A stretch of DNA of 64,000 nt from Tubiluchus corallicola (Eukaryota > Priapulida > Priapulimorpha > Priapulimorphida > Tubiluchidae). The notes below the pieces were generated by a model. It did no database searches and was not told the origin of the DNA. It saw nothing but the letters and a program-made list of their open reading frames with translations. Below are positions 5,247-48,734 of this stretch, one piece after another. The stretch's first letter is position 1, and the number at the start of each line of letters is the position of its first letter. Location of the stretch: the NCBI GenBank assembly GCA_030141605.1, contig JAQGDQ010000483.1, positions 62,001-126,000 of the forward strand, in the 5' to 3' direction. The position numbers were made by a program, and so were the translations under genes.

Positions 5247-5415
5247 ATGGATCTGAGGTCTGCAGTGTCGTGTGGTGGCCATAGATCACAGCGTGCCAGC
5301 AGTGAGTCTAGTGCTTACGAAGTTGATGAAAGTCTCTGGATGGTCAAAGACATGTGGTCTTCTCCAATGTTTAATACGAGATTGCCTGCTGAGAGTGGAG
5401 CTGGAACGCTTTTTG
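5247..5415 (+). CDS. candidate alternative first coding exon A (Ser-rich N-terminus)
   Basis: An ATG at 5247 opens 56 codons ending at a consensus donor TTTTTG|GTAGGT. The exon ends after the first base (G) of a codon, phase 1. The peptide begins MDLRSAVSCGG and carries a Ser-rich stretch at residues 14-23 (SQRASSESSA), which includes a possible basophilic kinase site (RAS). It continues with ESLWMVKDMW and ends LPAESGAGTLF. In-frame sequence extends only ten codons further upstream with no other ATG, so 5247 is chosen as start; the context AAAAATGG is good. Without splicing the frame stops five codons later. The composition looks coding rather than random. The parent gene is not identified. 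The matching phase of several downstream ORFs suggests they compete for one acceptor. What this N-terminus does is unknown. Confidence 0.6.
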
Positions 5416-6896
5416 GTAGGTTAAATTAGTTTATTCTAGATGTGTTAAGATGATTGTTTTGTAGGAATCGTTTTTTTTGGTTATCTGGCTGACTAACTGA
5501 CTTACTGAGTGGCTAACTGGCTTGTTGGTTATTTTTTACAAATCTGAAGTTGACCTCTGAAGAGACTGTCTCTTATATAAAGTCATATATTGGCACTGCA
5601 TAATTTTATTCGTAGATGGAAAAGTGTATCATTATAATTCATTATATTATTACAAGTTTATTTATCATTACAACCAAAAGGTTGAATTATAACACTGTAT
5701 AAAATTACAAAATATAAAACTTTAAACGAATAAGCAAGGAAGAACACATAGCAACAAGCACTATTACACAATATACATGAACTAAATAAAATGAGTTTAA
5801 AATTATTGTTTGAAAATTAAATAAAACATGTCAGATAAAACTGTTCTTGAATCTCTTTGTTCTGCATTTAGATTAGAGGTATTTCAGACGGGAGCAATAG
5901 AGCAACTTTTTACAAGAATTTTTGCGATGGGTATAAATAAGGGTTGAAGATTAACCAAAATTAAAGGATTTACATGGTTTTCATTTAGAAAAATTATTAT
6001 CAGTGAACTTTTTTGAACAGTTTCTAACCAGTCAGAGAGAGCGAAATTTTGGGACTGATCAGTGGAAGTTATAAAAGAATAAATGATTACAAGCACAATT
6101 CAGCGAAATGAAAAAGGGAACGAATTGCATGAATGACTAAATAAAAAAATGAATAATTCGTAAATAAAGAAATCGAGAAATTGCTTGGTGTCAGTGATAA
6201 TGATAATAGCTGCTGCACGCTTCAAAGTTCTTATGAAGGTTAGTCAACAGGAACAGTACACCAATTTTGGGATGGCTGATTCAGTAACTTCCTGCTTTTC
6301 GCTACCTTTCCCATTTTGACGGTTTATTAATATGTTCGTTTTTTATGTCAGGGATAAATCAATTTGATTTGATTTGATTTCCAGTATGTATGGTGCTTTC
6401 GGGTAACTTTCCTCCAATTTACCTAATGGTCTTGCTCTAATTGTTCAACTACAACATTCCATTCGCATAATTTGGATTATATAATTACAACAGGCATTAA
6501 AATTCCTTTCAGAATCAATCAGTATGACACCCTTGCTAATTTACTTCAACAAAAGTCTGGCAACAACAGCCTGGCTGTGTGCTTTTTCACAAACTTGACG
6601 GGTTTTACAGCCTGACTAGTGAATACGAATTGGAATTTTGGGTCAACAAATAAGGTGGTGTTTAATTTCGCTTTCTTTTGTGGTCAGCGTTTTGTCGCTG
6701 TTTAACAACACTGCGGCGTGAATAGATTCTTGTGATTGCGTGTGATATCCTGCCAGTATTTAAAGCGAGAATTTGCGCCAAATCAGGTTATTAGTTGTTA
6801 CTAATCCGTCTATTCAATAAGCAGCTTGTACTTAATCAATAATATTTCCATATCTCCACTTCTTATCAATATGCAGTATGATGCCAGTATCATATA
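5416..6896. other. intronic stretch, no gene seen
   Basis: This is AT-rich sequence without coding signal on either strand. It contains the minus-oriented pentamer tail near 6357-6382, listed separately. Confidence 0.45.
6345..6385 (-). mobile_element. minus-strand retroelement tail (AAATC)n
   Basis: The plus strand reads ATTTGATTTGATTTGATTT, the reverse complement of an AAATC pentamer tail like the one at 1745-1767. This suggests the 3' end of a related element on the minus strand, whose body would lie at higher coordinates. I could not delimit that body. A short tail can arise by chance, so confidence is low. Confidence 0.3.
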
Positions 6897-7265
6897 CGGG
6901 GGTGACCGGTAATAAAATCACGGGTAAAAATCACAATTTTGGCTAGGAAAAAAAGTCGGTTAATCAAACAAAAATTTTCAAGTCAGTCATCATTTATTTA
7001 AGTACCATAAACAATTAAAGCGTAAAACGCAAAAAAATTAAATCAGCTATTAACTAGCAGTAAATGATTTCTACACATTGACAACACTATTTATACATGA
7101 TGGCATTACATGTATGTGAAAAAAATCACGTTTTGTTCAACATCTTAAGGTTACGATTAGAATTATTTCTTTTTCTCTGTGACTTTTTTCCTTTAACTTA
7201 AATGATCCTACGACTTTTTTCCTGTGACTTTTTCTGAGACATTTTGACCTGTTACTTTTTAACTT
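6897..7265. mobile_element. foldback/MITE-like element, copy 1
   Basis: The left side holds repeated blocks of the type AAAATCACGGGTAAAAATCAC and AGGAAAAAAAGTC. The right side holds the complementary type GACTTTTTTCCTGTGACTTT, repeated twice. The ends can therefore pair imperfectly. A shorter relative with the same motifs in the same order lies at 41470-41650. No transposase ORF is present. This pattern fits a non-autonomous foldback element; exact ends and target-site duplication could not be fixed. Confidence 0.45.
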
Positions 7266-8091
7266 GATTCCAGAATGTTTATGTAGAACTTCATCTTGAC
7301 TACCTTTTTCAAGACCTTGCGTGTATTATGCTGTTAGCAAAAGATTTCCAGTACTTGTGCTTCCATTGCAGCTGCAGATTATGTCGTTACAAGCAATTTT
7401 CTAATCAGTAATTATTACAATTACAGGTAGTTATTTCTTTGTATAATATCCTTGTGTTTTTGGTATGCCCTGCGCGTACATTATGGGAATACATATAATT
7501 ACCCATAATTATTGCCCTGCATAGCCTTGCATTAGCTGCTATGTACATTATGCTCACTCCAAAGTTTTAGCCCAAAATTGCGTGTTATTTGTCGAAATTG
7601 CTGCATTTTATATCGTGTTGAGGTTACCTGATAATAGTTGTTGTTGAAAGGTAGGGTTAAATATCGAGTAGGCTCACGTATTGTGATTTTAAACAGATAA
7701 TAACAGGGGCAGGTGCATTTTCAATGTAACTGATTTACGACATTTGACCCTTCTGCGCTTCCACTGAACTGGATGCTGTTATTTTTATTACAATAATGAA
7801 ATATTTGTGCAGTGTTTGCTAGTATGCGATTGGCTATTATTAGGTATGTCTTCCTCGTGGCCTAAAGGCTAGCAGCTGTTAGGTACTTTATTACGCTCCG
7901 AAAGAGTTATGAACCGTTCCAGCTTGTTTTACATTACCGTGCAAGTAATTATACTAATTTGGTTGTTAATACTGCATGATATATTTTTCTATGCAAAACG
8001 GATTAGCTTTACTAATCTTATTTCCAATTTAAAACCATTAAACGTCCAGCTTTATTTCCAATAAACTATTTCGAATTATGTCGCAGGTAAT
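7266..8091. other. intronic stretch, no gene seen
   Basis: AT-rich sequence with no ORF, repeat or RNA gene that I can support. Confidence 0.45.
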
Positions 8092-8455
8092 ATGCCATCA
8101 CCGCTGAGTTTTAATTTACACTGTATTCGCCATTTTTATAATATTGTTTTTAATTCAGCAAGGGGGGCTTGCAGTAAGATAAGAAAACTGTTACCTTATC
8201 TTTCGAAGAGCGACCATGTCAATCTATCGGCAGCAAATGAATTACTATTTAATGCTAATCAATTACCAGGTTTTACTAATCGGGAAACCAAAGATTTTTC
8301 TACTTATGTATTAACCTGCCAATTATCTTTTTTTTGTTACTGTAATAATAGTCTAATAATTTGTCCATTTGCATTGTTCATATTTGTTTCTTTTTGCCTG
8401 TGAAACATTACGTATGTTGTACTTTGAGTACGTAATAAATGGCAATAATAATATG
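8092..8455 (+). other. 103-codon ORF of unknown origin followed by retroelement-like 3' tail
   Basis: An ATG at 8092 opens 103 codons ending at 8403. The first part (MPSPLSFNLHCIRHFYN) leads into KIRKLLPYLSKSDHVNLSA. After the stop comes a T-rich leader, then AATAAATGGCAATAATAATA, which resembles the 3' end of a non-LTR element. A possible phase-1 donor (TGCA|GTAAGA) lies at 8173, so an alternative reading is a short first exon of 82 bases. I favour a mobile-element remnant because of the tail. No conserved motif is recognised. Confidence 0.25.
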
Positions 8456-8926
8456 AGAGCCATATAAAACATACAATTAAAGTATTCGCACATACACAAT
8501 AACTAAAACAGAGTGGGACAAGGCCGACCATTTTTGTAAAGAAGTTGTTTGGCTCCTTGCAGAGCTATTTCCAGCTGCTTTCCAAGTTCTGCAGGGACTG
8601 GTCCTGGTGCCTAATCTACATTGAATATAAATTATAAAATTTGTGATTGTTAAAACTGACATGATGAACGGAAGTTTGCAATTTTGGTTATTAATTTGAT
8701 TGCTAAATCGTTAACACGTAAGTGCTGACAATAGGTATTTCTAATCACTAATCAGGGAAAGAGGATCTGATATTAAATTTGAACCCATCAAGAACATCGT
8801 TTGCATTGCTCGTTGGCATCATGATAAATACGGTTAAGATCACGTGACCTAATCTCTGTGGCTCATTAGCATTGTTGATGTGTCTAGAAAATGACTAGCA
8901 TCCGGTAACTAATGTTTGACTGCAAA

Positions 8927-9179
8927 ATGGAGGAGGAAAATAAAACGATCGTTTCTTGCCCAAATGTGGGCTCTTTTAGGTGCTCTCAAGAATGCAGTTT
9001 TATTTTACTGCCATTTGGAGAAGTTTCATTCTTCGGAAATTTATCGGTTGACCCCGCAGCGCAGTTCCAGGACCCTGGGGTCTTGTCGTCCCTCCCCATT
9101 CCTGGCTTTGTCTTGACCACAGTTTATGGCCCATCAGGGGAACCATACTTTAACGACGTGACGTTTATGGCGATTGTGT
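8927..9179 (+). CDS. weak candidate alternative first exon B
   Basis: The ATG at 8927 has an excellent context (CAAAATGG) and is the second Met of an ORF beginning at 8912. It opens 84 codons up to a GTGAGT donor at 9180, again phase 1. The exon ends in T rather than G and the last exon bases (TGT) are not consensus. The peptide begins MEEENKTIVSCPNVG, has a hydrophobic middle (FILLPFGEVSFFG) and a Pro/Gly-rich stretch (SLPIPGFVLTTVYGPSGEP). The local GC content is higher than in the surroundings. If not spliced the frame runs to 9244. A second strong donor-like site, AGG|GTAAGTAA, lies at 9249, after the stop of this frame. A second frame (8916-9116) is also open, which weakens the call. Confidence 0.33.
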
Positions 9180-9249
9180 GTGAGTGTCCTGTGCACGTAT
9201 CTGTGGCGCGTGACAGTCATAGATTTATGGTTATTGCCTGCTGACTTAG

Positions 9250-12200
9250 GGTAAGTAATGCGTAAATTTGGGTAGGAGATTTTTGCTTCTGGTGTGTGCG
9301 GTTGTTTTTTTGTCTCTCAGCAGAATCAATCAGCTTTCTCTGCTTCCCAGATCTGACTTAATGTGTCATCCTATCTGAATGCTGATTACTTATCAATAGG
9401 AAGGAAGCTCATTAATGGTAGCATAAACCCACACTTTTTCAAATCCAATTTACATATAGATGTAAGAAGTTGATTGAGCATTGTAATGATAATTGTATAA
9501 ATTAATAATCATTGGTTGGAGTTTGGGAGAATGAATTCGTCAGCAGAAAAGTGATGTTTGTACAGTTGATCTTTCATTTAATTGCTTTTTATAATTGTTT
9601 ACAGTAAAGTAAATTCTTACTTTACGTGCAATTCTCGCTTATCTCACAATTCTATAGCACTTTTGCACATACTTTTATGCACCATGCTTGTTGCCTGTAA
9701 GTATTTGTTTTATATTCACGATTCTGGCATTTTATAAATAGTTGCAAGCAAATGAATTGGTGCATCTCTTAATGATATGCTTGCAGAACTGGCAAAGTTT
9801 ATACAGCTTGGTTAAAGATCTGACTACACGGGCGTAGAAGTAGAACCACTAGATGGCGTCCACCTGCACCTTGTAATAACTAACTACACGCATTATACAA
9901 TTGACATGGACTTTTCAGTGACTTATGATTTATTTTAGTCGTTCGTCAACGACGTCATGATTTATTTTCATCGAACGCAAAGCACCTGTCCCAGAGATGT
10001 CTTCAATTTTTCCTCTTCCCGGACAAGCAGCTCTGCTGCCCATTTTTAACTCTGCCAAGAAAAATGAGCATTCTGACAAGTTAGTGTGATGCATGGCGGT
10101 CTAACATACGACCAAGCATTCACGTCACCTTGTAATTAAGCTCCGTTCACACCTCAATTAGGCGTACGAGCGATAAATCAGATGTTAATCACGCAGCAGC
10201 AGCTGCATAGAGCTGCACTTGTTGGCTACCTATGCAACAAAGAGGGTAGCGATAATGTGGAGAGAAAATTATGTAACAGAATTCTCTTGTGGCATTGGTC
10301 GTTTTTAACTAGTCATCCTGAGACTAGTCAAGTTATTTTAATGCTTTTTCAGCAGAATCGATTTTTCGCTTTTCATGTTAGAACGTATATAAGAAGTCGA
10401 CTTTTTACCCGAAGACAGTGCTTTTTGAAAAGCAAATTCAGTAATTTTATGTCAAGTATACTTTAGCAGAAAGGTGTAAAAATTTACTAAGAAATGGGTC
10501 TTCAAGAGATTTTCGGATGGTAATTTTTGGTGGAACGCTTCCGCAGCATTAGACTGGAACGTCGTACAAGTTTGCAATTTGGGAATAATTTCATGAAGAG
10601 TTTCCAGATGAATGAAGTGTACCACTATTGATCATTTTGACTAGATCTATAGAAAAAATGGAATATACGTACAAAATGGAATATGGGGCGGAATGAATGA
10701 GTTTTTTAACCGCCTTGTGTGCTTATACGTGTAAAACGTACAATATGACCGCAAGCTCAAGAAAACCATCCATCCATTTTCTTCTAGAAGTTGCATTGTG
10801 TACGTATTCAACAAACTGAAATGGTTTTCAGCACTCACAAATTGCTACCTATATGATTTTCAAAACGAGGAAGCAAGACAATTATAGAATCCCACAGTCT
10901 TTTAATCACATAAATCTAGTATCATAGTAAAATTACATGTACTCTACACTTGCTAGTTCGCCTCAAATGGTTCTTCTTGGCATCAGTTTTGCTTTAGATT
11001 CGGTTTTTGTGACCTTCAGTGATCAGTATGTGTAAATGCATCTGCTTAGTAAAGTGAAGTCAGCCTGGTGCTTTCCCAGAACTCATTTCCCATGCGTCTT
11101 TCAACCGGAGCAGACTGCTCTTCTATGCCTTGAAAGTTTTAGTATAATCCACCTTTCTTTGCTCTCAACACGCACTCTTACATTGACATTTTATGCTGGC
11201 TTTATTCTCCACCCAATTCTTTAATATAATGCACTTACAATTTATTCAGCGAACCACTTTGGTTTTCCAATTGCAAGTTTTTCTAATTCTGGTGCGGATT
11301 TTCTACAGTGTAAAAGCTGTACGCATTATCGTAATTCCAGGTACCTATCGTCCTCATGACTCACGTGATTGAGCATTGTTGTAATTCGAGGTACTTATTG
11401 TTGCTCATGTGACTGGTTTGACTTGCTCGAAAAGGACCTTCAGCAAGTTGTTTAGGCCAGTCTGTTGAATTTGAATACATATTTCCTTTGCGTGGATTAT
11501 AAAGGGGCACAATAGTGTATAGCAACTCTGCATTTTCTGGTCCATATACGGAAAAGAAACAATAATCCAAATTCAAACGGCGTAGTATATGAGCAGGTGA
11601 TTAAACACTGCAAGAAAGAGGGGCGAATTTCATTTATACTTGTCGCTTTGCTGCCTGGTATAACATTTTCGTCCAAAATTCAGAAAAACTCCATTATTGA
11701 CTGCCAGATAGACCGTCTACGATTGGAGTAGTACTAGTGTAATAGTAGCATCAGGATCCAGAAGGTCCCAGAACACGATCCTTTCACGGAGACCTCAGTA
11801 TTTTCTGGCAATCCATTGTTTTCATGGCTTACTCTCTCATGCAGTTTTGCCGTTTTGCTTTGCCTGTACACGAGAAACCCAAAAATTCTAAGCAGATTAA
11901 GGGGCAAACCATAGCAGAGTGGTCTAAGCTGTGATTTATTGGGTCGCTCACAGATTGCCTGAAATGTAGTCCTTGTGGCACTAGGCACCTATCCAAAGTC
12001 CATGACCAAATTCAGGTCATTGTATCCTTAACGACCCGTATTCAAACAGTGAACGTGTATTTTGAAATTTTTTAGCGTTTTATGGACTTCTCTCTAAACA
12101 TTAAAGGAACAGCCATCTTGAGCGAAACGCATGCATGTCTTCTGCGGTTACTCTGCAGTCTGCATTGATTGCATAGGCAATCAGGCCCACGCTTTATTCT

Positions 12201-12486
12201 GTAGTATTCTTGTATGCATTCTCGCAAAGTTCAGAGTGACCCATCCTCACCCACCAGTAATACAAGGCTGAAAATTCTTTGCGCTGGATGTTCTGTAAAA
12301 TTTCTGTAAGCATCACAAAATGACTTGATTGCTCTCCTTTACAGTTTGCTAGTAAATAATTGCACAACCATTCAAATAAGCAGAGAAACAAATATGATTT
12401 ATCCCGAAAAATGCAGCTGCATTCTCCTGATTGTGACTGTGCCTTTTGCATAATGGGTGCTTGACCTGCTGAAATATTTGGTCTAG
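9250..12486. other. intronic stretch, no gene seen
   Basis: Only short shadow ORFs occur. None has both a good start and a good donor, and none has acceptor plus donor with an open frame between. No tandem repeat or retroelement end is recognised. Confidence 0.45.
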
Positions 12487-12538
12487 TATGAGTAGTGGTA
12501 GCAGTAGCAGTAGCAGCAGCAGTAGTAGTAGTAGGAGT

Positions 12539-12579
<41 letters not shown>
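12487..12579. repeat. AGT/AGC trinucleotide microsatellite
   Basis: About thirty triplets of AGT and AGC, ending in a run of pure AGC (CAG-type) repeats. The apparent poly-Ser ORF on the plus strand and poly-Leu ORF on the minus strand are translations of this repeat and are not called as genes. Confidence 0.9.
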
Positions 12580-12580
<1 letters not shown>

Positions 12581-14699: not shown

Positions 14700-15436
14700 T
14701 TCTGCAATGTCTGCAGTTACATCAACATTGTGCTTTGCTTTTCCTGTTGGTGTTTGGTTATTTTCTACAAGTTCTGCATTGTTTCCTGGCTATATCAACA
14801 TTGTTTCCTACAATTACTCTTATTTTGCCAAGTTCGTGTAGTCACTACAATACAAAGCTGAATACATCATTGAGTTTGCAGCGTTTTTGCAGTATCAATA
14901 TCTTCTCTTATTGTGTCAGCACAACAGTTTGGTGTTTCAGCTGGTGTATTAACACGTTCTCCATTTTCTGCTGGTGTCTGAACTTTGTGCTCAGAAACTT
15001 CTAATATAATATTGACAACAAACTGTTCAGCAGCTTCTATTTTAGTGTCAGTATTATTTTCTGCAATATCTGCTGTTGCTCCACAACGTGTTTTTGCAAT
15101 TTCTACTTTTATACCCACAATAGTTTCTGCTGCTTCAGATATGTTGTGACACCAAGTTACGTATCCGTAGCGACATTGTCTTTTACAACAGCTGCTATGG
15201 TACGAGCATCGTGTTGTATACCTCCCGGTTGTGGCTTCAACGTGACATTCCAAAGTTTTTACTGCACAGAGTTTTGTAACCGACACTAACCAACGTGATT
15301 TTCTAAAGTTTCTGCTCCATGGTGCTTTGTAACCGCTATACTGATGTCTGAACATTACAGCCTGCAGCACATTTTGCTGTTGTATCATCTGTTGTTGTAA
15401 AAATTTAATGATATAGTTTTTCTCGCCGCGAGACAA
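14700..15436 (-). other. degenerate repeat region with a 189-codon minus-strand ORF
   Basis: The plus strand holds diverged repeats around the core TTTCTGCAATATCTGCTGTT, with spacers of variable length. On the minus strand this gives the longest ORF of the window, 189 codons (15436 down to 14867). It begins MSRGEKNYIIKFLQQQMIQQQ, whose Gln-rich start is loosely reminiscent of gag-like proteins of retroelements. The C-terminal half is repetitive (AEIA, AENN, AEQF, AETPN). An ORF of this length is near the limit expected by chance in 64 kb, and the repeat structure may keep the frame open. No domain is recognised. Confidence 0.35.
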
Positions 15437-16280
15437 TAAATCTCACGTTTGTCCTGCCGTATCGCTTTTCCAATTTCCCGGATGGTTTTCTAATGACTTT
15501 TTCCAGCACTCTGCGAAACATGGCTTCATTTTTGCCAGGCACGTATTAAACTGCTTCCCAGCCAAGAAGCCACTAACAGTTAATGTTATTAGCAGGGATG
15601 AATTATTCGCTCCCGCGTAATTTAAGCTTGCTATTTCCGGTTTGGATTGTTAGGATTAGTTTGTGAAAGCACAAAAATTACGGAGTATTATTTAACGAAT
15701 CGTGGAGCATTTTTGATTTTCTGTAATTGTGGAAGTATCCTTATTGTGCTTGGTTTTCATAAAACTCAAAACGAATGCAGCAATTGCTGTCATCCGTTAT
15801 CATTATGGAATTACCAGCTCACATTAAATTGTTTCATAATAGAAATACATGATCACATTGTTGCACAGACTCTTAAACTTAAACGAGACGGATCAAACTG
15901 TTGGCAATGTTAAATGATGCGGAATTTATTCAAGTAATAAATTAAACGCTGAAATTGCCAAGGAATTTTAGCTGCTGCTTCATGCTGGGAGATTAGACAC
16001 TGGGAAGTTGTTTGAGATTAACATAAATCATGTGATTTGGCTGTCTAGAGGAGGTTTTAAGGTTGCTGCATATGAGATAGGGCCTTGGGACTATTGGTGC
16101 TAATCAAAATAACTTTTTCGAAGATGATGCGATGGTGTGACTTGGCTCATTTTTAGCAACGTGTCACTAGGCAACTAAAGATATGAAAATGTTTAGAGTG
16201 AGCCGTTTAGCAAAGCTAATACCTTAGTATTGCACTCAGACTGCATAAATCAAAGAAATTAGTTCGTGAAGTGAATTAGG
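15437..16280. other. intronic stretch, no gene seen
   Basis: No supported coding or RNA feature. The ORF at 15647-15913 starts with a non-ATG codon and has no splice signals at its ends. Confidence 0.45.
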
Positions 16281-19303: not shown

Positions 19304-21499
19304 GCTCTTACCTACCCTGTAATTTAGCTGAGCAGTTCCTCGTGTTATGTCCACTTAATTGGTGATATTGTTGACCAGGTGGTGTCCGGGACAAAAACTG
19401 TTTCAGTTAGCTTAGAAATTTAATTGACTAAACTACTGACTGAGATTCATAGTCTGAGTTTTAACCGTTTCCCAAGGGACCAAACTAATTTGAATCTAAA
19501 ATTAATTTTTCTTATTACATCTATTATTAATTTGTTAATTATTTATAAATTAAAAAGTTACTTAGACATTTAGAAGTGTTATTACCCAGTTAGGTAAAAA
19601 GCTAGTAAGTCTGGGTAACAGATAGAAGTTCTTGGTTCGCTTCCGGCCCGAGATTTCGTTATTTCTAATTTTTCCATGCACTCGTATGGAATGTAGACTT
19701 GAATATAGTGTGCACTGCTACATTTCAGACGTGCCAGTGAGACGCTTAATTTTGTTAAGCTACATTACCTTGCATACATGTGTTAGTCGTACGTGATCCC
19801 ACAGGATCCTTAAATGTCGCCCATTTATTTAAAAAAGAAACCTTTAAAATTCACCAGTGGGCAAAATTCCGTTGTTATGTTAATACTATTTTATAATAAA
19901 ACGAAGCACATCATGACTATTAAACCATATGTATGTAGTAGTCTGACGGGAAAATTACAGTACGTAAACTCTTCAAAAAGAGAACAAGCATTATAAATGA
20001 CGAATTCTTCGCTTTAAGTGCCATCCATTGACTAGAGACAGAAACAGCTAATAATAGCGTACTTTGGGATTTGTAAGACATTTGTTAAACTAAACTTTTG
20101 AGAGATAAATACATTAACCTTGATCGTAAACTCTCGCTCAAACACTTAATGCCTATTAGATAAATGTGTTATCAAAACCCCTGGAGACACGTTCGTTTGA
20201 CAGCTTTTTATTGTAGTAAAATCTCTGTCATTGTGCAGAAATGATTTCCATTATAGGGCTAAGTTAACCGAATTTACAAGGCTGTACAGTAAAATGATAA
20301 ATGAACTAAGGTTCGATGACATTTGCAGTTTCGCTAAGTTTCATTTACAATACGTATAGTTATCATTTCACCATTCAGAGAAATGCTGTTGTTGTTATTT
20401 GTTCTGACGGTCATCAACAGACACCAGTCCTTCACTTGCCCTCAGGCCTCTTGCCATGGTGATTTTGCTAAGAAATAAATCAGGTTATGATTTATGTGTC
20501 ACTGGTGATAAATAAATGTGTTGTTATTTATGTCTCTCGCGCGCCGGTATGAAATATTTGGTGCAAGAGGTTATCTCAATGTTATAGCAAGTGAAACTCC
20601 CTTGAGTGACTGCGGTTAATGATATCGTGGATGAAACTACTTTGCTGAAGCTGGAATGACGTGAGCGTAACGCTATAGCTTGTGAGACTCGGCGCAACAC
20701 ACTTCAGGGCTCCAGTGATGTCACCTAAATATTGTCACAAATGACGCCTTGTTACCAGGAGTTGTCAGGGACTCTTGACTTTGAAAGAGCGACTTCTGTG
20801 GAGGTTCACTGAAGCTAAAACTTTAGTTTCAGTTTCAAACATGAATTTTCCACATCGGTGAAACATTTTTAAATTGTTAAAACATCCATTCGCATCGCAT
20901 TTTGCACCAGTAGGTAAGGCGGAATCAAAAATAAGATGTTTTTACCTGTAATAATAAGATTTTACCTGTAATTTCAAGAACAAACCATTTTTCTCACGCA
21001 AACGAATTACCGCAACAATTATTATTGTAGGTCAACTTTAAGCCGCTGGGGCGCGTTTGTTTGTGCGAAATCCACTTGTACGCAAATCGGCGGCTTGTTT
21101 ATTCGCACTCGAAAGACAATGCGGGAAATCTTCTTTTGGTCAACTTTAAACGAGAACACAAAAACACTAAGAGGAAAGGTAAATCTTGCCACCACTTAAG
21201 CGTGATAAGATTCGTTTCCTGGAGTGGGAAACGTTTGTTCTAAAAGAAAACATACATTCTGTGTTCTAAAATTACCGCATTCACACCATTTAGTTCCATT
21301 ACCAGAAACAGAAAAGTATAAGTGTGTGCTGTATTTTGCAGCATCTTTACTATTGCGCAACAGGGTAGACGTTTTAAATCTTTTGGTGATAAAAGCCTGT
21401 TATTCACCTTAAAAACACGTGTATAACTGTCTGGTTTGCACTTAATTGTTGTTTTGGATCGTGCGACAGTGAGTATACGGACCGGATTGTCATTTGGGT
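19304..21499. other. intronic stretch, no gene seen
   Basis: No supported gene. A tRNA-like B-box (GGTTCGCTTCC) near 19635 is not part of a foldable tRNA. The ORF at 21061-21243 starts at TTG. It has a weak phase-1 donor (AAAG|GTAAAT) but no credible start or acceptor. Confidence 0.4.
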
Positions 21500-29361: not shown

Positions 29362-29422
29362 ATGTTTGCTGCTCTTCCATTGGACAATATCACAAATTCA
29401 CTATCAATAACTGAATGTACAG
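29362..29422 (+). CDS. candidate alternative first coding exon C (very short)
   Basis: The ATG at 29362 opens 20 codons and ends at a near-perfect donor, ACAG|GTAAGTAAAA, after the first base (G) of a codon. Phase and final base match exons A, D, F, G and H. The peptide begins MFAALPLDNITNSL and ends SITECT; NIT is a formal N-glycosylation sequon, without evidence of secretion. A T-rich run directly precedes the ATG but no AG acceptor lies between it and the ATG, so a first exon fits better than an internal one. Such a short ORF can be chance; the quality of the donor and the shared phase are the evidence. Confidence 0.45.
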
Positions 29423-29504
29423 GTAAGTAAAAGGTTGTGCATACTGCCTTCTTTATATTGCTGTCTTTTGAAGCTGTTAAAGCTTAATTAAGATGGTGAG
29501 AACA

Positions 29505-30665: not shown

Positions 30666-30714
30666 ATGACGTGGATTCGAAGATCTTTCAGACGTTTTAT
30701 CACAAGTTATGATG
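30666..30714 (+). CDS. candidate alternative first coding exon D (very short, basic)
   Basis: The ATG at 30666 (context TTAAATGA) opens 16 codons ending at GATG|GTATGT in phase 1 with a final G. The peptide is MTWIRRSFRRFITSYD: four Arg alternate with aromatic and aliphatic residues, which could make an amphipathic basic N-terminus. It is only 1.2 kb from exon C, so the two might share a regulatory region. As with exon C, its shortness means chance cannot be excluded; the shared phase and the consensus donor support it. Confidence 0.4.
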
Positions 30715-31159
30715 GTATGTAAAATAAATGTACTGAAAATGTTAAGATGCGAGTTTTTATACCCGCTGCTGTTTGTATGATCAGTCATCGTGTATCAGTA
30801 TTATATATGTGTACATATGTGTAATCATTAGAACTAGAATGTTTAAAAACAGATCGTATGGTACTCTGGTATGTCTCGTTATTTTGTTCTTTATTAACGT
30901 TTTTACTTATTAAGTGTTGGGGGTGTTAAGGTTGGCTTCTTTTGGCGAATCGTTATGGTGGTATTGAAATTCTCCAATTTTTTGTTCAATTCAAGCGATT
31001 TTCTTCATAATGTTCACGTTGAGATTTGATGATCGTCAGCAAACTGCCTGGAAAAGCTTTTCCCATTTTCTACGAGATAATATGCGGAAGCTGCTGTAAG
31101 ATTGATTCCACGTTGCCTAGCTGTGTACGTGCGCCCTTCTCCAGATGCTTATTGTATTC
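30715..31159. other. intronic stretch, no gene seen
   Basis: No supported feature. Confidence 0.45.
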
Positions 31160-36335: not shown

Positions 36336-37459
36336 GTACAAGTCTGAATTTTGCTGATGCTGTACTTGACAGAGGGGCGCCACTGGACCATTTGTGTTGC
36401 TTTACAGATGAAATTAAACTTGCTAATCTGTTAATTAATCAATTTAGCCTGCCTAACTGTCAGCTACAGATTTTAACTGCGATAATCCAGAATTCTTTCG
36501 GATTTATCAGAGCTAAAATCTATAGTTAAAGGGCACTTATAGTGAAATAGTTATTACTGGCCCAGATTTAACTGTGCTTTAATCAGGCCTCTGTAGTGTC
36601 TTTCTGACTAATTATTTGTACCCATAACTCGCTAATTCGTTACCTGCTAGATTCAATTAATATTTGCACGCACTAGACCTATTATTTAATTTCCTGTAGG
36701 CGCCTTGTCAGCGGAAACAATGCCTACCGTAGATTAATACATTATATTACGGGCAGAGATTTGCATGACTTTGTGGTAATTAACCGAAATGCCACTTTAA
36801 TTACCGAGATCACGCAATTCGCATATTGAAGAATATTGCTGTGGCGTTCACATTGGACCTGTGTGTTCATCATCACTCTGGTTCTTTAGTTTCTGACTGG
36901 TTTTATAAACGCAGAACTACTGTGAAAATAATTACCATTTTGTCTCCAAATTAAGATAAGATTTAATTCCTTAATTGTGCATTGAAACGTTTGGTCTAAT
37001 AAATCATTAATTGCTAACCAGGATGAGAGAGATGCTAATCACGTTTAGAAATGAACGTGGGTTAGTCTGCCTCACTTTTGCCCACTATTTTTTCTGAATC
37101 TCTTGTGTGTAGTATAATAAGTTACTAATAAATTTTAACGTTTACAAGTCAGTTTTTGACGAAACAGATCTACCATTATATGAGTCACTGTACTGGTCAA
37201 CATTGATGGGTCATGGATATGGGTCGGGGTTGGGTCACGCCATCACGGGGGGGGGGGGGGGTTGACCCGCTTCATTTCAGCTCGGACTGAATATGTAGCT
37301 TTACTACAGTAGTAAGGATTTCCACTACTGCAGGGCCAAAACAATGGAGGTTTTTCGTTGCTTTAAGAATTTAAGAAGTATTAGGCCTGCACACTTATTT
37401 TAATACTTTTAGGTCGAGATATCGAGCAGAATCACTAGTGAAACATCGCTGTCTCACTG
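36336..37459. other. intronic stretch, no gene seen
   Basis: No supported gene. A run of fifteen G lies at 37247-37261. Confidence 0.45.
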
Positions 37460-38036
37460 TCCTAAAGTACTTGGACTTTGTTTCAATGCTGTGTTACTTT
37501 TGTGTAGGCTGATCTTAAAGTACATGGACTTCGTTTTGATGTTATGTTGCTTTTGCATAAGCTGGTCTTAAAGTAGCTGGGCTTTGTTTCGATGTTGTGT
37601 TGCTTTTGCATAGGCTGGTCTTAAAGTAGCTGGACTTTATTTTGATGTTATGTTGCTTTTGCATAGGCTGGTCTTAAAGTACCTGGACTTTGTTTCTATG
37701 TTATGTTGCTTTTGCATAGGTTGGTCTTAAAGTAGCTGGACTTTGTTTCGATGTATGTTTCGTTGCTTTTGCATAAGCTGGTCTTAAAGTAGCTGGACTT
37801 TGTTTTGATGTTATGTTGCTTTTGCATAGGCTGGCCTTAGAGTACCTGGACTTTGTTTCGATGTATGTTTTGTTGCTTTTGCATAAGCTGGTCTTAAAGT
37901 AGCTGGACTTTTTTGATGTTATGTTGCTTTTGCATAGGCTGGCCTTAAAGTACCTGGACTTTGTTTCGATACTGTATTGCTTTTGTATAAGCTGGACTTA
38001 AAGTACTTGGACGTTGTTTCGATGCTATGTTGCTTT
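37460..38036. repeat. 53-bp minisatellite, about eleven units
   Basis: Tandem units of about 53 bp each contain blocks such as CTGGTCTTAAAGTAGCTGGA, CTTTGTTTCGATG and TTGCTTTTGCATAGG. Inner units are very similar while the first and last two are more diverged. Two related sub-types alternate in the middle (GATGTTATGTTGC versus GATGTATGTTTCGTTGC), hinting at a higher-order unit of about two repeats. Confidence 0.92.
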
Positions 38037-39615: not shown

Positions 39616-39742
39616 ATGGTTGTTAAGTGTTCGAAGCGAAATGCAGCATGTGTCAACGACGCCAGTTTTCGACGACAGGCGAAGCCATATGTTTTGTGCT
39701 TGGACTTTAGCTGTGGAAAATGTCTCCATGATCCTTCCTTAA
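39616..39742 (+). CDS. candidate alternative first coding exon E (Cys-rich)
   Basis: The ATG at 39616 (context AAAAATGG) is preceded by an in-frame stop at 39607. It opens 42 codons ending at TTAA|GTAAGT, phase 1. The final base is A, not G. If not spliced the frame ends two codons later, exactly as expected of an exon. The peptide starts MVVKCSKRNAACVNDASFRR and ends SCGKCLHDPSL. It has five Cys (residues 5, 12, 28, 33, 36), including a C-x2-C pair followed by His, which might bind metal, but the full pattern is not a known zinc finger. The shared phase argues that it uses the same acceptor as exons A, C, D, F, G and H. Confidence 0.5.
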
Positions 39743-40059
39743 GTAAGTAATAGCGGATGGTTCAAAAGTTACTAAAATCCTAGTTTTAATGGACGTGGAT
39801 ATAAAATAAGTTTTGATAAAAATCTGTTCCGGATAATTAAGCGAGTCCAATAATTAAGGATGACCAATAATTAAGAAATTGATATTGCGAGTGTTTTGTT
39901 GGCTCATTCAAGCAATCTCTGCGTTATTAACTAGTTCGGTAGACACTCGGAGTTTTTACGGCATAATACACCCTGAAATGAACACTTTTTTTCAGTGTGC
40001 TTTAGAGATCAAACAAAGTGTAATTCTCACCTCAAGAAAATAACGTGAACGTAGCCTTC
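39743..40059. other. intronic stretch, no gene seen
   Basis: No supported feature. Confidence 0.45.
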
Positions 40060-40524: not shown

Positions 40525-40575
<51 letters not shown>

Positions 40576-40670
40576 TAAGTTTGTGTGGAAAGGTTTTTGG
40601 AACAGACTTTAAACTCCCCTTTTCTATTACACCGTGCCATGAATTCCGCAATTCACGCTTGTGTCCAGTC
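40060..40670 (+). repeat. dispersed repeat R2, copy A
   Basis: Matches 48735-49285 in order and orientation. Shared blocks include ACACAAGAAAAC, ACCGTTAGACGCAGCC-type sequence (ACCGTTAGGCGCAGCC here), TTTGAAAAAATAATCA, and GTGGTGCA followed by a G-rich spot. A TA/CT/TA microsatellite (40501-40574) interrupts the right part of this copy only. No coding is seen. It is probably a non-autonomous mobile element. Confidence 0.65.
40500..40575. repeat. compound (TA)n(CT)n(TA)n microsatellite
   Basis: Two TA runs flank a TCTCTC run. It interrupts the right part of repeat R2 copy A, and copy B lacks it at the matching place, so it expanded after the copies separated. Confidence 0.95.
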
Positions 40671-41469
40671 TGTTTGTCACGAAAAGGCTGTTTTTAACAG
40701 AGCATGTTTTAGCATTTTAAATCGCCCTTTTTTGTGTTAAGATCTAAACAAATGCGAAGAATATGCGCTAATTTGTTTAGTGAGCGATTGTGGCGCCGCC
40801 TGTGTTTGCCTTTCTATCGGATTTCAAAAATGCGCTATTTACAGAACAGAATTACGACATGTTGATAGTATTTGCTCAGATGCGTTTTCCTTGTTTTCCC
40901 TGCCTCGGTTCTTTTATCGGGAAAATGCATGCGTGTAATCCCGTAAGGGAATATTCCTAGCGGTTGAAACGAATAGACTTTTACAATAAGTTCTGTGATT
41001 ACTTAAATTTCTTCTGTGGAATTGATGTTAAATATAATTTCAGATGAAAGCCTTGCACTGACGCCTTTATCAGTATCTTTTATACTTTTTAGAAGCATCA
41101 AATCCAGGAAAAATATTATCAAGTCAAACAAGGATTATCATTAAATGTTATAGAGATTCCTGAAGCTACGTATGCGCTTAATTAAATTTTAAAGAACTAA
41201 ATGAATAAAAAATCTGTGTAGTAGCCATTGTTTTCTGTAGTTAGCTCTTGGATGAAACACGGTTTTGAATTCCCACTCATAACTCTTTTAAAAAATAAAA
41301 GCTCTTGATCTCTAGAACTACAGTGAGAATCTAAACGTGTAAACTGCCGCCAGAGCCAGTGTAATAGGCCGCCATTTGGATAGCAGTTTCGTCTTTTCAA
41401 CGTAACTATGGTTGATAAAAGATACCGTACAGTCTACGTTAAGAATCATTTTAGAAGTTAGATAAATTT
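40671..41469. other. intronic stretch, no gene seen
   Basis: No supported feature. Confidence 0.45.
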
Positions 41470-41650
41470 TCGGTGACCAGCAAAGAAATCACAGGAAAAA
41501 AATCACGGAAAAGATCACAATTTTGACTAGGAAAAAGTCACATTTTGGATAGGATTGAAATTATAGAGTTAACTGTTATTTCTTTTTCCCCCTCTGACTT
41601 TTTTGTGTTATTTTTTACCTGTGATTTCACGTCTGTTATTTTTTTACCTG
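41470..41650. mobile_element. foldback/MITE-like element, copy 2
   Basis: The left side (GAAATCACAGGAAAAAAATC, then ATCACGG and GACTAGGAAAAAGTCAC) is complementary in type to the right side (GACTTTTTTGTG, TTTTTTACCTGTGATTTC). The same blocks, including GGTGACC at the left and GGCTAGGAAAAAAAGTC, occur in the copy at 6897-7265. This copy is shorter, lacking most of the interior. Confidence 0.45.
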
Positions 41651-42901
41651 CATTCACATTTTCAGTCTAGTAGCTGTACTTGCACAGCACTTCTTACATA
41701 GGTTTGGGCACCTATTCTATGATTTTATAACAGTGGAGTTCTCTGTTTACTTGTTCTCAGTTTGCATTGCTAATTTCACTAACTCTAACTCAAAACTTCC
41801 TTGTTATTTTCACGTGTATATATCCTATAACGAATGAAGTTCTATTTTATTAATGGCTTAAAGTTTTTGTTCGTTTTCTAATCCTTCGCTAAGGCGATTT
41901 CGTAGTGTACTCTTTCTCTGTTCGCTCGAGTTTTCTTTGTAAACGTGATTAAATTATTTATAAATTTATTTTGGCTATTCAGCATTTTATGGTTTTCAAA
42001 GAGACGGAAAATAAACTGCTATTAAATTAAGTCTTTTGTGTCGGTGACCCTGTGAAGGTTAACCTTGAAATGGACAAGGAAAGTTAATAGTTTTATAGAG
42101 CTTATAATGTTTATGACTGTTTTTCTTCGAAATTAGATTTGTCCAGTTAAGAAGCGTGTTTGTTTTACGATTTTTGCATAAAACAAAACCGGGTGTATAG
42201 ACAAAGAGTTATCAAACTAGTAACTGAAAATAGACTACCAGGGTTAACCATTGTAACTATAGTAAAGAGCTGCAACTTACTTGAGTTTTCATTGTCAATT
42301 CAAACCATATTTTAATTACTGCACCAGTATGTCGAAGTCATTGTTAACTATTATCCACCATCATAATCGTCATCGTCATAATCACCATCAGAGGCACTCA
42401 CAACAACAGCAGCGACAATGAAAAAAGCTGCTACAGTAGCAGCACACCTTCACCTTTGAATATCAACCTTAAATCACCATCATAATCGTTATCATCAGCT
42501 TCCTCTTTTTTCCTCTTCGTCTTCTTCTACTACTACTAATTTTTTTCTTCTCCGTTATCATCATCATCTTCATCATTACCGTGACATCGTCGTTAACAAA
42601 ACGGATTGCTGTTTAGAAGTCTTCTACTAAAAATAAAATTCAATTCAAATTTTTTAAGAAGTTAGAGAAATTTCAAGTCATGGTTAATGCCTCGTTGAAG
42701 TTATTCCTGGTCTTGTGGGCATGATTTTGTAGGTTTGCTACATTCACAAGGTTCATAAATCCACAAGGTCACGTAAGGACCTTTAAATTTATAACTTTCG
42801 TGTTCATTTATGCATTCGAATCACAGTCATATTAACTATATCAATTGATGTTTTATCATAACCATAATTTTTTTTTGGAAAAAACTGCAACGTAAAATTT
42901 C
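41651..42901. other. intronic stretch with ATC-rich microsatellites; leader of exon F
   Basis: ATC/ATA-type simple repeats occur at about 42355-42590 (CATCATAATCGTCATCGTCA and similar). A short tail AAAATAAAATTCAATTC at about 42629-42652 resembles a retroelement 3' end but has no recognisable body. No gene is supported before exon F. Confidence 0.45.
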
Positions 42902-43127
42902 ATGTCGTTACTGAAAGGACTTGTTGTCGGCCAGTTGGACCCCCAAAGCAATCTTGTTTCGCCTTGCAAAGTTCCTCTAGGAAGCCCTGTTGTAAATAAG
43001 GGACCCATTTGTGCAGATTTGCCAGTTCATTCCATTTTATGTTATGGCTGGCGACTCGTGATTTCATCTCAAGAGGGCGTGAGATTGTCAGATTGCAGTA
43101 GGTCGTTTTTTGAAATTTGCCCCGAGG
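42902..43127 (+). CDS. candidate alternative first coding exon F
   Basis: The ATG at 42902 is preceded by an in-frame TAA at 42893. It opens 75 codons up to the donor CCGAGG|GTGAGC, phase 1 with final G. The peptide starts MSLLKGLVVGQLDPQSNL and contains five Cys (residues 22, 37, 47, 65, 73). Its middle is VNKGPICADLPVHSILCYGW and it ends SRSFFEICPE. Local GC content is clearly above the flanks and the composition looks coding. Unspliced, the frame would run to 43165. No known domain is recognised. It lies only 622 bases upstream of exon G, so the two may share control elements. Confidence 0.55.
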
Positions 43128-43749
43128 GTGAGCTGCAGCTACTGTATAAACTGCCCGCTTACTAAAAACATACCAAGCTGAGTAATGCTATAACAGGTGT
43201 GTCATCCTGTTGAGGTTTTAAGCAGAGCTTTGCACAACAAGTTCGTCTCATTTCCTCATTTGCTTCTCTTCTACAGGAACTGCTCTGCGATAATTTAACA
43301 TAGTGGATACAGTGGTTTAGAGTTCAACTTTGTTTTGGGTGTAGATGTTTTAAAATTCATTGCATACTTGCCGTGAACTTTGTGTGTTTTGCAAACTTTT
43401 TTGCTGCAAATACCGTGAGCTGTTTCTGAAGTTTGTAGTCGAAAAGCCTAGAAATCTGTTGAACTCTGATCGGGACAGTGTTTGAAGTAACTCCATCGTG
43501 TTTACTGATTCGTACAGTATGACGAGTTGATATTTGCTGGCTCATTATATTACCAGATTTGGGCAGTCGTATTACATGTATATATACACCCTTCGTAGAG
43601 ATATTAGTAGCACTAACAGCTGCATGAACACGTCGTCCGCATACATGATATAATTTAGTTCATCATGTATATAACTGTGGTGACTTAAACGCGTTTTCAG
43701 AAAGTTTTTTAATGTAAAATATCGTCTGCGTGCATGAGATGACTTAAAC
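43128..43749. other. short gap between exons F and G; promoter of exon G expected
   Basis: No gene on the plus strand. A TATATATAC stretch near 43578-43586 and a second ATGTATATAACTG near 43664 are possible TATA-like elements 85-170 bases before exon G. The minus-strand ORF at 43357-43545 has no splice or start evidence. Confidence 0.3.
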
Positions 43750-43963
43750 ATGTTTTTCGATGACATTTTTCTGGCCGGATCCGTTGAGGACCCGTTTGGG
43801 GCGTGTCTGATGAGCAGACTGCATGGGTATAGTTACCCTTGTATGACTCGTCCAAAGAGCTTTTACGAAAATGTCGATGATGACGACGATGGCGATTTTG
43901 TGCTTATTGAGTTGCCAAGTATCGATGAGGTGATTGATGACTACAACTGCTATAACGGGACGG
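43750..43963 (+). CDS. candidate alternative first coding exon G (acidic N-terminus)
   Basis: This is the best exon candidate of the window. The ATG at 43750 (context AAACATGT) follows an in-frame TGA at 43735. It opens 71 codons ending at ACGG|GTATGT, phase 1 with final G. The peptide starts MFFDDIFLAGSVEDPFGACL, has a basic patch around MTRPKSF, then an acidic stretch of five Asp (residues 43-47, DDDDDGD), followed by FVLIELPSIDEVIDDYNCYN. Alternating acidic and bulky hydrophobic residues resemble transcriptional activation segments, but that is only a resemblance. Codon composition differs clearly from flanking AT-rich DNA. A CRE-bearing minisatellite starts 74 bases after the donor. Confidence 0.68.
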
Positions 43964-44036
43964 GTATGTGGCTAATGACCTTCTTTTACTGTGCTCTGAC
44001 TTCTAAGTAACTTCTAGAGTCAGCTATCTGGGAAAA

Positions 44037-44625
44037 TTTCTGACAGCAGATATGCAACAATGGCTTCTGACGTCAGATATGAAGCACTAATTTCTGACGT
44101 CATGTATAAAGCACTGATTTCTGGCGTCAGATATGAAGCATTAATAGTGACATCAGATGTGCAGCAATGGTTTCTGACGTCAGATGTGATGCACTAATTT
44201 CTGACGTCATGTATAAGCACTAATTTCTGACGTCAGATATGAAGCACTAATTTCTAACGTCATATATGATGCATCAATTTCTGACGTCAGATATGAAGCA
44301 CTAATTTATGGCGTCAAATGTCAAATACTAATTTTTTGCGGTACATATTAAGCACTAATTTCTGATGTCATACATAAAGCACTAATTTCTTTCGTCATAT
44401 ACAAAACACTAATTACTGATGTCATACATAAAGCACTGATTTTTGGCGTCATAATTATATAAAGCACTAATTTCTGACAGCAGATATGCAACAATGACTT
44501 CTGACGTCAGATATGAAGCACTAATTTCTGATGTCATATGTGATACACTAATTTCTGACGTCATGTATAAAGCACTGATTTCTGGCGTCAGATATGAAGC
44601 ATTAATTGTGACATCAGATGTGCAA
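44037..44625. repeat. 27-28 bp minisatellite carrying TGACGTCA palindromes
   Basis: About twenty-one tandem units of the type TATGAAGCACTAATTTCTGA followed by CGTCA. Eight units hold a perfect TGACGTCA, the consensus cAMP-response element, at 44068, 44095, 44175, 44202, 44228, 44282, 44502 and 44556. Others have one mismatch (TGATGTCA, TGGCGTCA, TAACGTCA). A block of about 130 bases at the left (starting TTTCTGACAGCAGATATGCA) recurs at 44471-44624, showing a higher-order duplication. Binding by CREB/ATF proteins is inference from the motif. Confidence 0.93.
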
Positions 44626-46540
44626 TTAATAAAATAATGTGCAGGAGTCTTGACGAAATAAGATGAAATTGCCTTCCTGGTTATTCTTGTTTAATACAAA
44701 CGCATGCTAGGAAACCACAGTTTGACTTGTCGATTTTTTTATTAGAAACATTATTGGGGCTTTAATTAGATACGCTGGTTAACTACCCGATTTTCGACTA
44801 CCTCAAGCGCCTTTTTCATACGTCTTACGCAAATGCTGATTGCGTGCCTATACGTAGCGTATTAAACTCTCAAGGGTGGACAAAAAGTAGTTATTTCCTA
44901 CGCTGCGGATTAACAGATTTTCCTAAACGAGCCAGCGCGTCACTTAGGTCATTGACTTCTGTTCTTTTTTTGTTTTTGTGCGTCGGATTTCCGGGTTTTA
45001 TCGATTTGTACTCGTTAGTGCAGCTGTTGTCCGGTGTGAATCAAAGTAAAAAAGGCAAAACTCGTGTTCTCACTGTTCACTACAGAAAAAAGAAAGTGTG
45101 GAGATGTTATGAAGAAAATAAGGAAAATAATTTGCTTTAAATAAATGCGAAGAGAATCTTTTATAGTGCTCACTGGCATCGTGACGTTTGCGCATGCGCC
45201 TTACGCCTGCTGATTAAAAAAACTTCAATGACTAACCCACTGAAATATTTCGTTTTACGTTGCTTTTCTCGCCTGACTGCAGTCATTATTTTCTCTGTTT
45301 ATCGAGTCATTGTTAAAAGCTAACAAAACCTTGAGTTTAACAGCTCAGCCCCGAGGGTCTTCGTACAAAAATGGCTTTTAAACCTTTTAACGTTTCTCTG
45401 TTATCTGTTGTGTTTCTAACTGATCCCTAAACTGCTTAGCAATGAGTCAAGTACTCTACCGGGCCAAGTTTGTGTGTAAACCTTTGCAGTTTATTTTTAT
45501 TTGAACGCTCTTCAAATGTTATGTGAGGAAAACGGGCTCAGTCAAGCCATTAAAATACGAATTATGGCGCGCTTTGGTGCATTTTGGTGTAAAACAATTT
45601 GGAGGGCAAATTAGGCAATGTTGTCTTACAACAGGGTAAATTATGCTCTGTCCTTAAATATTGTTTTAATTTTACTCGTAAGTGTGCCGTGCTCACATTA
45701 TATTTTGTAAGCGCCGCCTACATTCTATTCAGAAATTTCAGGAGAAGTTGTTTTGTTTAAACTTTCAGCTCGAACACTATATTAAATTGTAATATTGATA
45801 TTCATATAATACGTACTCAGAATTAAAACAATAATTGAAGCTCTGACGCAACGGATTCTGATTGGCTACGTAATCTGTCTCGTCTGAATTCAACCTAAAC
45901 GTTTTTGGAGCAACGACAACATTCTTGGAGATGGGGATTTTCAGTCTTTCAAATGAGAAAATTGTGTCATGCAGTCTTAATCTTTGACTCCATTCAACGG
46001 AAATTTGGTTTTAACATCTACTTCAAACTTCTCTGAAGTTGATGTTGGACTTTGAAGTATTTAAAAGTCTACCATCCACTTACCGGTCCACTGTAGTAGG
46101 TTCAAGTATTGTTACTTGTTCAAATAAATGTTAAAAACTGAAACCATTTTGGGGGGCGAATGGCGTGTTTAACAAGTACGTTTGCTGTATTTGATAGGTT
46201 TAAGGTGTTGATAAATGTTGATAAGTATTGATAGGTTAAGATGTTCTGGGGGTAGAAACGTCAGCTGCACAGTGAGTAGAGAAGTCAACTCCAGAGTGTA
46301 TAAGGTCATTGTCATGCAGTCTGATGCAGAAAGGGATGGGTTTACTGCTACCCATGTGCATCAAGCGCAAAAAACAATCTTGATAGTTCAGCGCAAATAT
46401 TTACATTGGTTACACTTTTTGCACTTCACAAACCAGCACCAATGGCATTTGCATGACGTCATCCCTGTGTTGGTTGACGAATGATGATCCTTTAAGGTCT
46501 GATGTAGTGTCTTGCAGTAGGTCAGTGCGAGAAGGCTGCT
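44626..46540. other. intronic stretch, no gene seen
   Basis: No supported gene. The ORF at 44844-45140 begins without a good start context and has no donor in phase 1. The ORF from 46215 meets ACA|GTGAGT in phase 0 and may belong to the retroelement remnant that follows. Confidence 0.4.
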
Positions 46541-46759
46541 ATGGTTCTAACTGTGACGTTGTTGTACTGCAAAAGTTCATGTATGTGTAGGTTAACAGTG
46601 ATTACTAGAAAACGTTCTGAAATTGATGGGTACATATACGCTGATGACATGGTCCTGTTAGCTCTACCGGCAGCAGCAACAGACCCATCTTTGTTTCTGA
46701 ATAACTGTGATAACCCGGCTCAGTTTAACCACACTGCCCGTGAAATAACACGTACCTGA
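46541..46759 (+). pseudogene. reverse transcriptase fragment of a non-LTR element (YADD motif)
   Basis: The frame reads RSEIDGYIYADDMVLLALPA, which carries the Y-A-D-D catalytic motif of reverse transcriptase followed by the MVLLA extension typical of LINE-type enzymes (palm subdomain C). The upstream part (MVLTVTLLYCKSSC) and downstream part (LFLNNCDNPAQFNHT) cannot be aligned further by eye. Only this small part of the RT remains and no full domain is present, so it is inactive. Confidence 0.65.
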
Positions 46760-47865
46760 TTCATTTTTATTATAGCCTGCGATTCGTACGAGCCTTAACA
46801 CGGTACTGCAAATAATCTTGTTTCGAAACGTCGAGTTTTATTAGGACTGGTTTTACCTGCTTATTACGGCGGTTTGGTGGAGGTGTCTCCTCTCGCCACT
46901 GTCTCATTTGCTTTGGTGTTGATGGTTATTATTGTTTCTTCATGTAGCTGTGTTCACCTGTCATCTACTTCCGCTGAGACAGGGGTCACAGATGTGAACT
47001 TGAGTGACGTCGGGTTGTACAAGCTGGGACACACTCGTCTAGCAAGCTGATACCATTCTTTCTCTGTTTAAGGCACAGTCTGTGGCATTTTACTTGAGCA
47101 TTGTTCCTGCACGGAGTCTGTACTTTATTCTTGGAACTGGATCGAGTGGTGATGAATAAAACTGTTTTGTTTTAAATTTTGGCTTCGACGCTTTTGGATG
47201 CTAATTACAGTTTGAAGCTGAAAGCTAGAAATCATCCATTGGTAATGACAGATAATGGTTTTCTGGGTTCTCGTTAGTTTTGCGTAAGAGATTTGTTGTT
47301 TTCAAAGCATTTACAATTGTGAGCCACTGTGTGAAGCATATAAAGCATATAAACATATAAAGTTGGTGGAGACGTTGGCACTTTTTGTAATGGTGGTGAC
47401 TGCAAGACGGTGACAATGTGGTGTTGAAATACACGAAACCGTTTGTGGCTGATAGTTTGAGTCTTCAAAACATTGAGTCAAAACGTTTCAGTCTTCAAGC
47501 TTTTTTACCTGTACCAGTACTCTGGTTTGTTGCCTCTGACAGCAGTCAGTGACGGCATTAACGGTTCCTGTTGCTGACGGTGGTGCCAGAGAAAAAATTA
47601 TTTTTGGATACCTATTAACATCAAGTGGGCTTAGCTGGACAAGTTTCTTACATTCAAAATTCAAGCGTTCAATGCACTGCATCTGAGCGGTATTGACTAT
47701 CCTTGGTTATGGGGTAATGAATGGAACCTACGACTGCAGTAACGTAACACTTTGCTGTGGCCTGGTGAAGCTTTTTAACTACAAACCTGTATAATTCAAG
47801 CGCCATTCCTTTGTCATCTTAAGCGCTCACTTTAGCAAAGGCGCTGACATAGCTTGGTGACAATA
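46760..47865. other. intronic stretch, leader region of exon H
   Basis: No gene or repeat is supported. The sequence just before 47866 contains GCGCTCACTTTAGCAAAGGC but no TATA box. Confidence 0.4.
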
Positions 47866-47980
47866 ATGACGGGCACACTAGTAAAGACGAAGCGGCGAAA
47901 GCGACCAAAATTGAAGCAGCTGATACCCATTGTATGCAATACAATATGGACGACAAGAAAGATTGTCATTGCCAGTTTTG
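47866..47980 (+). CDS. candidate alternative first coding exon H (strongly basic N-terminus)
   Basis: The ATG at 47866 (context ATAATGACG) follows an in-frame TGA at 47845. It opens 38 codons to the donor TTTTG|GTAAGA, phase 1 with final G. The same frame continues to a second possible donor, CAAAG|GTATAT, at 48022, also phase 1 with final G, which would add 14 residues (beginning KKKYVVNTAD). GTAAGA is closer to consensus, so the shorter form is given. The peptide begins MTGTLVKTKRRKRPKLKQLI; the cluster KTKRRKRPKLK looks like a nuclear localisation signal. It is the last first-exon candidate with good support before the window end. Confidence 0.48.
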
Positions 47981-48734
47981 GTAAGAAGAAATACGTAGTG
48001 AATACTGCAGATTCAATCAAAGGTATATAGTATATACTTTTACGTATTCAATCCTTGTGGTGCAATTGTACAATTGATGTTTAGTCCTTTTGATGCCATC
48101 ATCATGATATTGCGTATTGTTCCTTACCATGTATATGTGATTCTATCCGCCTATTGATTTAACATGAGAATGGAATGGGTCTTACGGGGAGTGTCTATGT
48201 AACAGAGGCAACACTTTTGAAACTGCAAATTTCAAATACTTCATGTAGAATACACTTGCATTATATTATTGCATGTGTTGGGCTATTGATCTTTCAAAAG
48301 GAACTTTGCATCTGACTCGCATTTGCATTTGAATGGCAACAGCGACGACGATGATGCTGATGACATTGATGGCAACAGCGGCGGATTGTCCCTATTATAT
48401 TTCTTATCGAAAATAATACGAAGATTAACTAAATATTTCACGATATTTAATTAAAATCTTCTAATTAGCAAAGCCATAATACTACGTGCTTCGCATTCCA
48501 CCGCTTCACGGAGAAAGCGGTTAATGATTTTCTCCTGTTCTTGTAAACTATTAACCTCCCACGTTCAAACATTCCTGCACTAAGACGCTAACTTCTACAG
48601 CTAGAGTTAAATTAATTTATGCTCCTGTTAATTACTGAAATATTCTTTTCACTGTTGTAAATTCTGTTATAGCCTTATTTGAGGGCAATGGTGTTCACTT
48701 GCAGGCGACATGTAGTATTTTATACTCAGAACTT
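47981..48734. other. intronic stretch, no gene seen
   Basis: Apart from the possible extension of exon H to 48022, no feature is supported. A GATGATG-type short repeat lies near 48340-48380. Confidence 0.4.

Follow-up and report, generated by a model that had tools for sequence, protein, structure and literature searches.

Alternative N-termini of mammalian SynGAP-family proteins have opposing effects at synapses. The N-terminal isoforms A, B and C of SYNGAP1 come from different promoters and are joined to common exons (PMC4753466). Human DAB2IP uses at least four transcription start sites, which give rise to several N-termini (PMC11239834). In C. elegans, gap-2 carries isoform-specific 5' exons, and its g and j isoforms are confined to the two ADE neurons (PMC11168454). 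Since alternative N-termini are known in SYNGAP1, DAB2IP and gap-2, the same design is to be expected in the family. The gene design is thus already known, and what is new here is another probable example of it.

We analysed a window of 64,000 nucleotides of the Tubiluchus corallicola genome (343.5-Mb), corresponding to positions 62001-126000 of a contig of 169,669 nt that was read whole; contig coordinates equal window coordinates plus 62000. The common exons of a RasGAP gene on the plus strand begin 1.5 kb past the window end, and the whole window is, for the most part, the 5' intronic region of this gene. The features of the gene are as follows (here and below, a slash marks a splice junction).

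Common second exon: contig 127535-127631, which is window coordinate 65535-65631, plus strand, predicted phase-1 entry, G/IFSRKSFKGDLKRTKSVTKLD
Fifteen further modelled exons of the RasGAP gene: contig 128105-138843, plus strand

The 16 modelled common exons (contig 127535 to 138843) encode a product of 1066 aa. In Pfam searches, the modelled protein contained the PH-like (PF25321, E=5e-33), C2 (PF00168, 5e-5) and RasGAP (PF00616, 3e-31) domains in this order, together with the C-terminal DAB2P_C (PF12004, E=5e-42), a family-specific region with a coiled coil. The best solved relative was SynGAP 3bxj (E=2e-149), with RASA1 (9e-41) and neurofibromin (1e-29) both far behind. Alignment to 3bxj revealed the RasGAP catalytic motifs, namely the arginine finger LTFRGNSLATKA (general form FR..(S/T)LATK) and FLRFLCPAI, the FLR motif. 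Judged by its modelled product, the gene is a member of the SynGAP/DAB2IP/RASAL2 RasGAP family. Genome-wide searches with PH_RASGAP and DAB2P_C matched this gene alone, indicating that it is the single detected member of the family. PDE4, MITF and the ecdysone-response nuclear receptors, which had been offered as analogies, are ruled out as the identity of the gene because the downstream domains are those of a RasGAP; the domains of these analogues were absent.

The locus can be compared with the described systems as follows. It shares RasGAP family and domain order with mammalian SYNGAP1, which has several promoter-specific N-termini; unlike the mammalian case, one family member is found in the genome, and the candidate first-exon peptides could not be paired with known N-termini. 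DAB2P_C is common to this gene and human DAB2IP, which likewise has several N-termini, whereas DAB2IP is a vertebrate paralog and the putative first exons described here extend across more than 80 kb. Like gap-2, the gene is a SynGAP-family member from an invertebrate; gap-2 has isoform-specific 5' exons, and there are candidates for such exons here. A single-copy gene of the same layout, entered in phase 1 at the same conserved Gly, would point to an origin of the layout before the vertebrate duplications. The analysis also supplies concrete candidate exons for this gene, which is ordinary, useful annotation.

With moderate confidence, we favor the reading that the window belongs to the long intronic 5' part of a single SynGAP-family gene with a few alternative promoters and phase-1 first exons, the best candidates being 5247-5415 and 43750-43963 in the window and those at contig 53409 and 21137. 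From each of the few promoters, transcripts would begin with a distinct first coding exon that has a phase-1 end and G as its last base. These first exons would be spliced to a common exon whose first base is the second position of a conserved Gly codon, where the PH-like domain starts. The exchange of the N-terminus might then change the location or the partners of an otherwise constant C2-RasGAP-coiled-coil protein.

The common exon, the first that is recognisable, has a phase-1 acceptor, TTTTCAAG/GG, at contig 127535 (AG at window coordinate 65533-65534). If this site is used, a G at the end of the preceding exon completes the Gly at position 8 of the PH_RASGAP profile, a residue conserved in the family. 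A second acceptor, TTTTTTACAG/GAT, lies 13 nt upstream at contig 127522; it is in phase 0 and scores 8.9, versus 3.8 for the phase-1 site. The motif CTTGAT, whose A is at 127509, may be a branch point. It is separated by 12 nt from the AG of the phase-0 site and by 25 nt from that of the phase-1 site, and given these distances the phase-1 site would be favored. Phase-1 entry into the common exon is therefore predicted as likely. The original prediction had called for one gene with a common exon past the window, and for one acceptor that seven donors in the window would join in frame. The gene was found, and the phase-1 acceptor at 65535 would allow such joining; the expectation is weakened by the higher score of the phase-0 acceptor.

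The seven predicted ORFs were verified in the sequence: they begin at the claimed ATGs, each has a GT donor in phase 1, and all but one have G as their last base. Their coding composition was expressed as codon log-odds, with 30.7 kb of kinase ORFs from the same genome as the training set, and compared with that of same-length ATG ORFs as controls. The values for the five weaker ORFs are included here.

ORF 5247..5415: plus strand, donor TTG/GTAGGT at 5416, phase 1
ORF 29362..29422: plus strand, donor CAG/GTAAGT at 29423 (perfect), phase 1; codon log-odds -4.2 bits, below 90% of controls; T at -3 of the start
ORF 30666..30714: plus strand, donor ATG/GTATGT at 30715, phase 1; codon log-odds -0.8, in the mid-range of controls; too short to judge by composition
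ORF 39616..39742: plus strand, donor TAA/GTAAGT at 39743, phase 1; codon log-odds -0.4; the junction would give Arg, not the conserved Gly
ORF 42902..43127: plus strand, donor AGG/GTGAGC at 43128 (good), phase 1; codon log-odds -0.6, without coding signal
ORF 43750..43963: plus strand, donor CGG/GTATGT at 43964, phase 1
ORF 47866..48022: plus strand, donor AAG/GTATAT at 48023 (weak), phase 1; codon log-odds -0.6, rank 31 of 55 among ATG-donor ORFs

We counted all ATG-donor pairs with a donor PWM score of at least 5 and a length of at least 49 nt, and order-4 Markov simulations served as the null. Several conclusions were made. First, the plus strand of the window holds 29 phase-1, 23 phase-0 and 21 phase-2 pairs, and the minus strand 19, 18 and 21, respectively, versus 18 +/- 5 simulated phase-1 pairs (max 28). 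At the stricter donor cut of at least 6.5, phase 0 and phase 1 are equally frequent on the plus strand (11 each). The seven ORFs are thus a selection, about a quarter of the phase-1 pairs on offer, and several of them also have donors in other phases. In addition, the longest ATG-donor ORF reaches 75 aa on both strands, as against 74 +/- 17 for the longest in simulations. Finally, G-ending phase-1 pairs on the plus strand are over-represented at the donor score of at least 5 (24 vs. 11 +/- 3 simulated), but not with the stronger donors of at least 6.5 (9 vs. 6.4 +/- 2.5); the unexplained excess at the lower cut is perhaps due to chance. The claims that the pattern of seven goes beyond chance and that several of the ORFs are far longer than expected were consequently not upheld.

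Composition divides the seven ORFs. Coding-like composition was observed in 5247 and 43750 only, each of which ranks within the top 4% when compared with ATG ORFs of equal length; the other five (29362, 30666, 39616, 42902 and 47866) are probably chance. We hold it to be highly improbable that all seven are genuine alternative first exons. An in-frame junction with the phase-1 acceptor is available to all seven donors, six of which would restore the conserved Gly, yet any phase-1 donor joins in frame by arithmetic, five of the seven lie at the null level of coding composition, and in three the start is preceded by T at -3. The proposed seven-exon array was overcalled, with independent support for two modules and five that are probably chance, yet the idea was right in kind, being that of a single gene with interchangeable phase-1 N-terminal exons.

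The same ranking was extended over the 127 kb of plus strand upstream of the common exon, and the following candidate first exons were obtained.

F1: contig 21137-21281, upstream of the window, plus strand, ...NHLMSV/G
F2: contig 53409-53544, upstream of the window, plus strand, ...DADPFIVP/G
F3: window 5247..5415 (contig 67247 start), plus strand, MDLRSAVS...GTLF/G; codon log-odds +7.2 bits; start context A at -3, G at +4; present once in the genome
F4: window 43750..43963 (contig 105750 start), plus strand, MFFDDIFLAG...YNGT/G; codon log-odds +11.5 bits; A at -3; single copy

By codon log-odds, F4 leads the non-repeat ATG-donor ORFs in the window, and F1, F4 and F3 lead those of the 127 kb, with F2 close behind. 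Each of the four combines a G-ending phase-1 donor with an A at position -3 relative to its ATG. Phase-1 G-ending coding-like ORFs thus number four in the 127 kb of plus strand, versus 0.03 in simulations; of the two such ORFs on the minus strand, the coding-score ranking identifies one as a GA-repeat ORF and the other as the antisense of F1. Amino-acid composition accounts for most of the candidates' coding signal, and F1, F2 and F4 are rich in Asp/Glu; on synonymous choice alone the candidates rank no higher than the top 16-22%. Genome searches for further copies of the candidate exons, either repeats or haplotypes, matched this locus only with four DNA and two peptide queries, the one extra match being insignificant.

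These results bear on a rival explanation, in which all seven ORFs are chance pairs in the intron of the RasGAP gene and the real first exon or exons lie only upstream of the window, for example at contig 53409. The abundance of phase-1 pairs (29), the ordinary ORF lengths, the absence of coding signal in five of the seven and the unremarkable synonymous codon use in 5247 and 43750 are what such an explanation expects. Against it, 5247 and 43750 each combine a top 4% composition with A at -3 and a phase-1 G-ending donor, and none of the simulated windows held a phase-1 G-ending coding-like ORF. We therefore regard the explanation by chance as a serious possibility, though a doubtful one; by their composition, the two candidates look like real alternative first exons. 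F1 and F2 are plausible as further first exons upstream of the window, although F1 may start at an acceptor at contig 21038 and would thus not be a first exon.

The junction of F2 was examined with the PH_RASGAP profile. When F2 was joined to the common exon, the start of the profile match moved from position 8-9 to position 2, with a gain of 8 bits, and this was the best of ten constructs. The F2 tail ranked first when compared with 72 other ATG-donor tails from both strands (E 2.1e-9 vs. 7.4e-9 for the best control). The match of the tail provides modest independent support for F2 and for the phase-1 junction. At the point that presumably matches the F2 junction, RASAL2 reads PFKVP/GFF and DAB2IP reads PFRVT/GFL. 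Apart from this overlap of F2 with PH_RASGAP, Pfam searches of the individual first-exon peptides gave chance-level matches only. A search of the 127 kb upstream for the first half of an extended N-terminal PH region, with motifs such as RRTVSV or WxxRxC, gave no match.

It is also conceivable, though unlikely, that 5247 and/or 43750 are exons of a different unit within the intron, either another plus-strand gene or a long non-coding transcript. What links the two to the RasGAP gene is only their phase, strand and position. A nested gene is opposed by the lack of further internal coding exons above threshold on either strand of contig 21.3-127.5 kb, except for antisense shadows of F1 and F4, and by the peptides of 5247 and 43750, which match no family.

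In other animals, strand skew is linked to transcription. After removal of simple repeats, the AT skew was -0.055 to -0.118 in every 8-kb bin of contig 48-136 kb, and it turned positive past the 3' end of the RasGAP gene. This domain fits one long plus-strand unit that spans the window and starts near F2.

A 27-bp tandem array of about 21 copies occupies window 44035-44619 and starts 72 bp after the donor of exon 43750. It holds eight palindromic TGACGTCA (CRE-type) sites, and its core pattern is unique in the genome at no more than one mismatch. A broader proposal, which we consider improbable, is that of an invertebrate SynGAP-family gene with at least four interchangeable first exons over more than 80 kb, in which the location of 43750, 72 bp before the CRE-type array, would hint at a cAMP- or activity-controlled isoform switch.

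Other minisatellite-like arrays were observed at window 37459-38036 (53-bp unit, 10.8 copies) and 61572-61816 (122-bp unit, 2 copies). Neither Rfam families nor tRNA genes were matched anywhere in the window. The longest stop-free stretch of the window, 14867-15442 on the minus strand (191 aa), had a coding exon score below threshold. Outside the window, reading by eye revealed an open frame of 1632 aa at contig 164221-169116 on the minus strand, possibly a mobile element, and a nucleoside-hydrolase-like open frame at contig 159233-160219. In the kinase search of the genome, six contigs (C1974, C2072, C2074, C2107, C1752 and C1831) carried kinase-like frames with identical scores and one common TAG, which suggests a dispersed or multicopy element.
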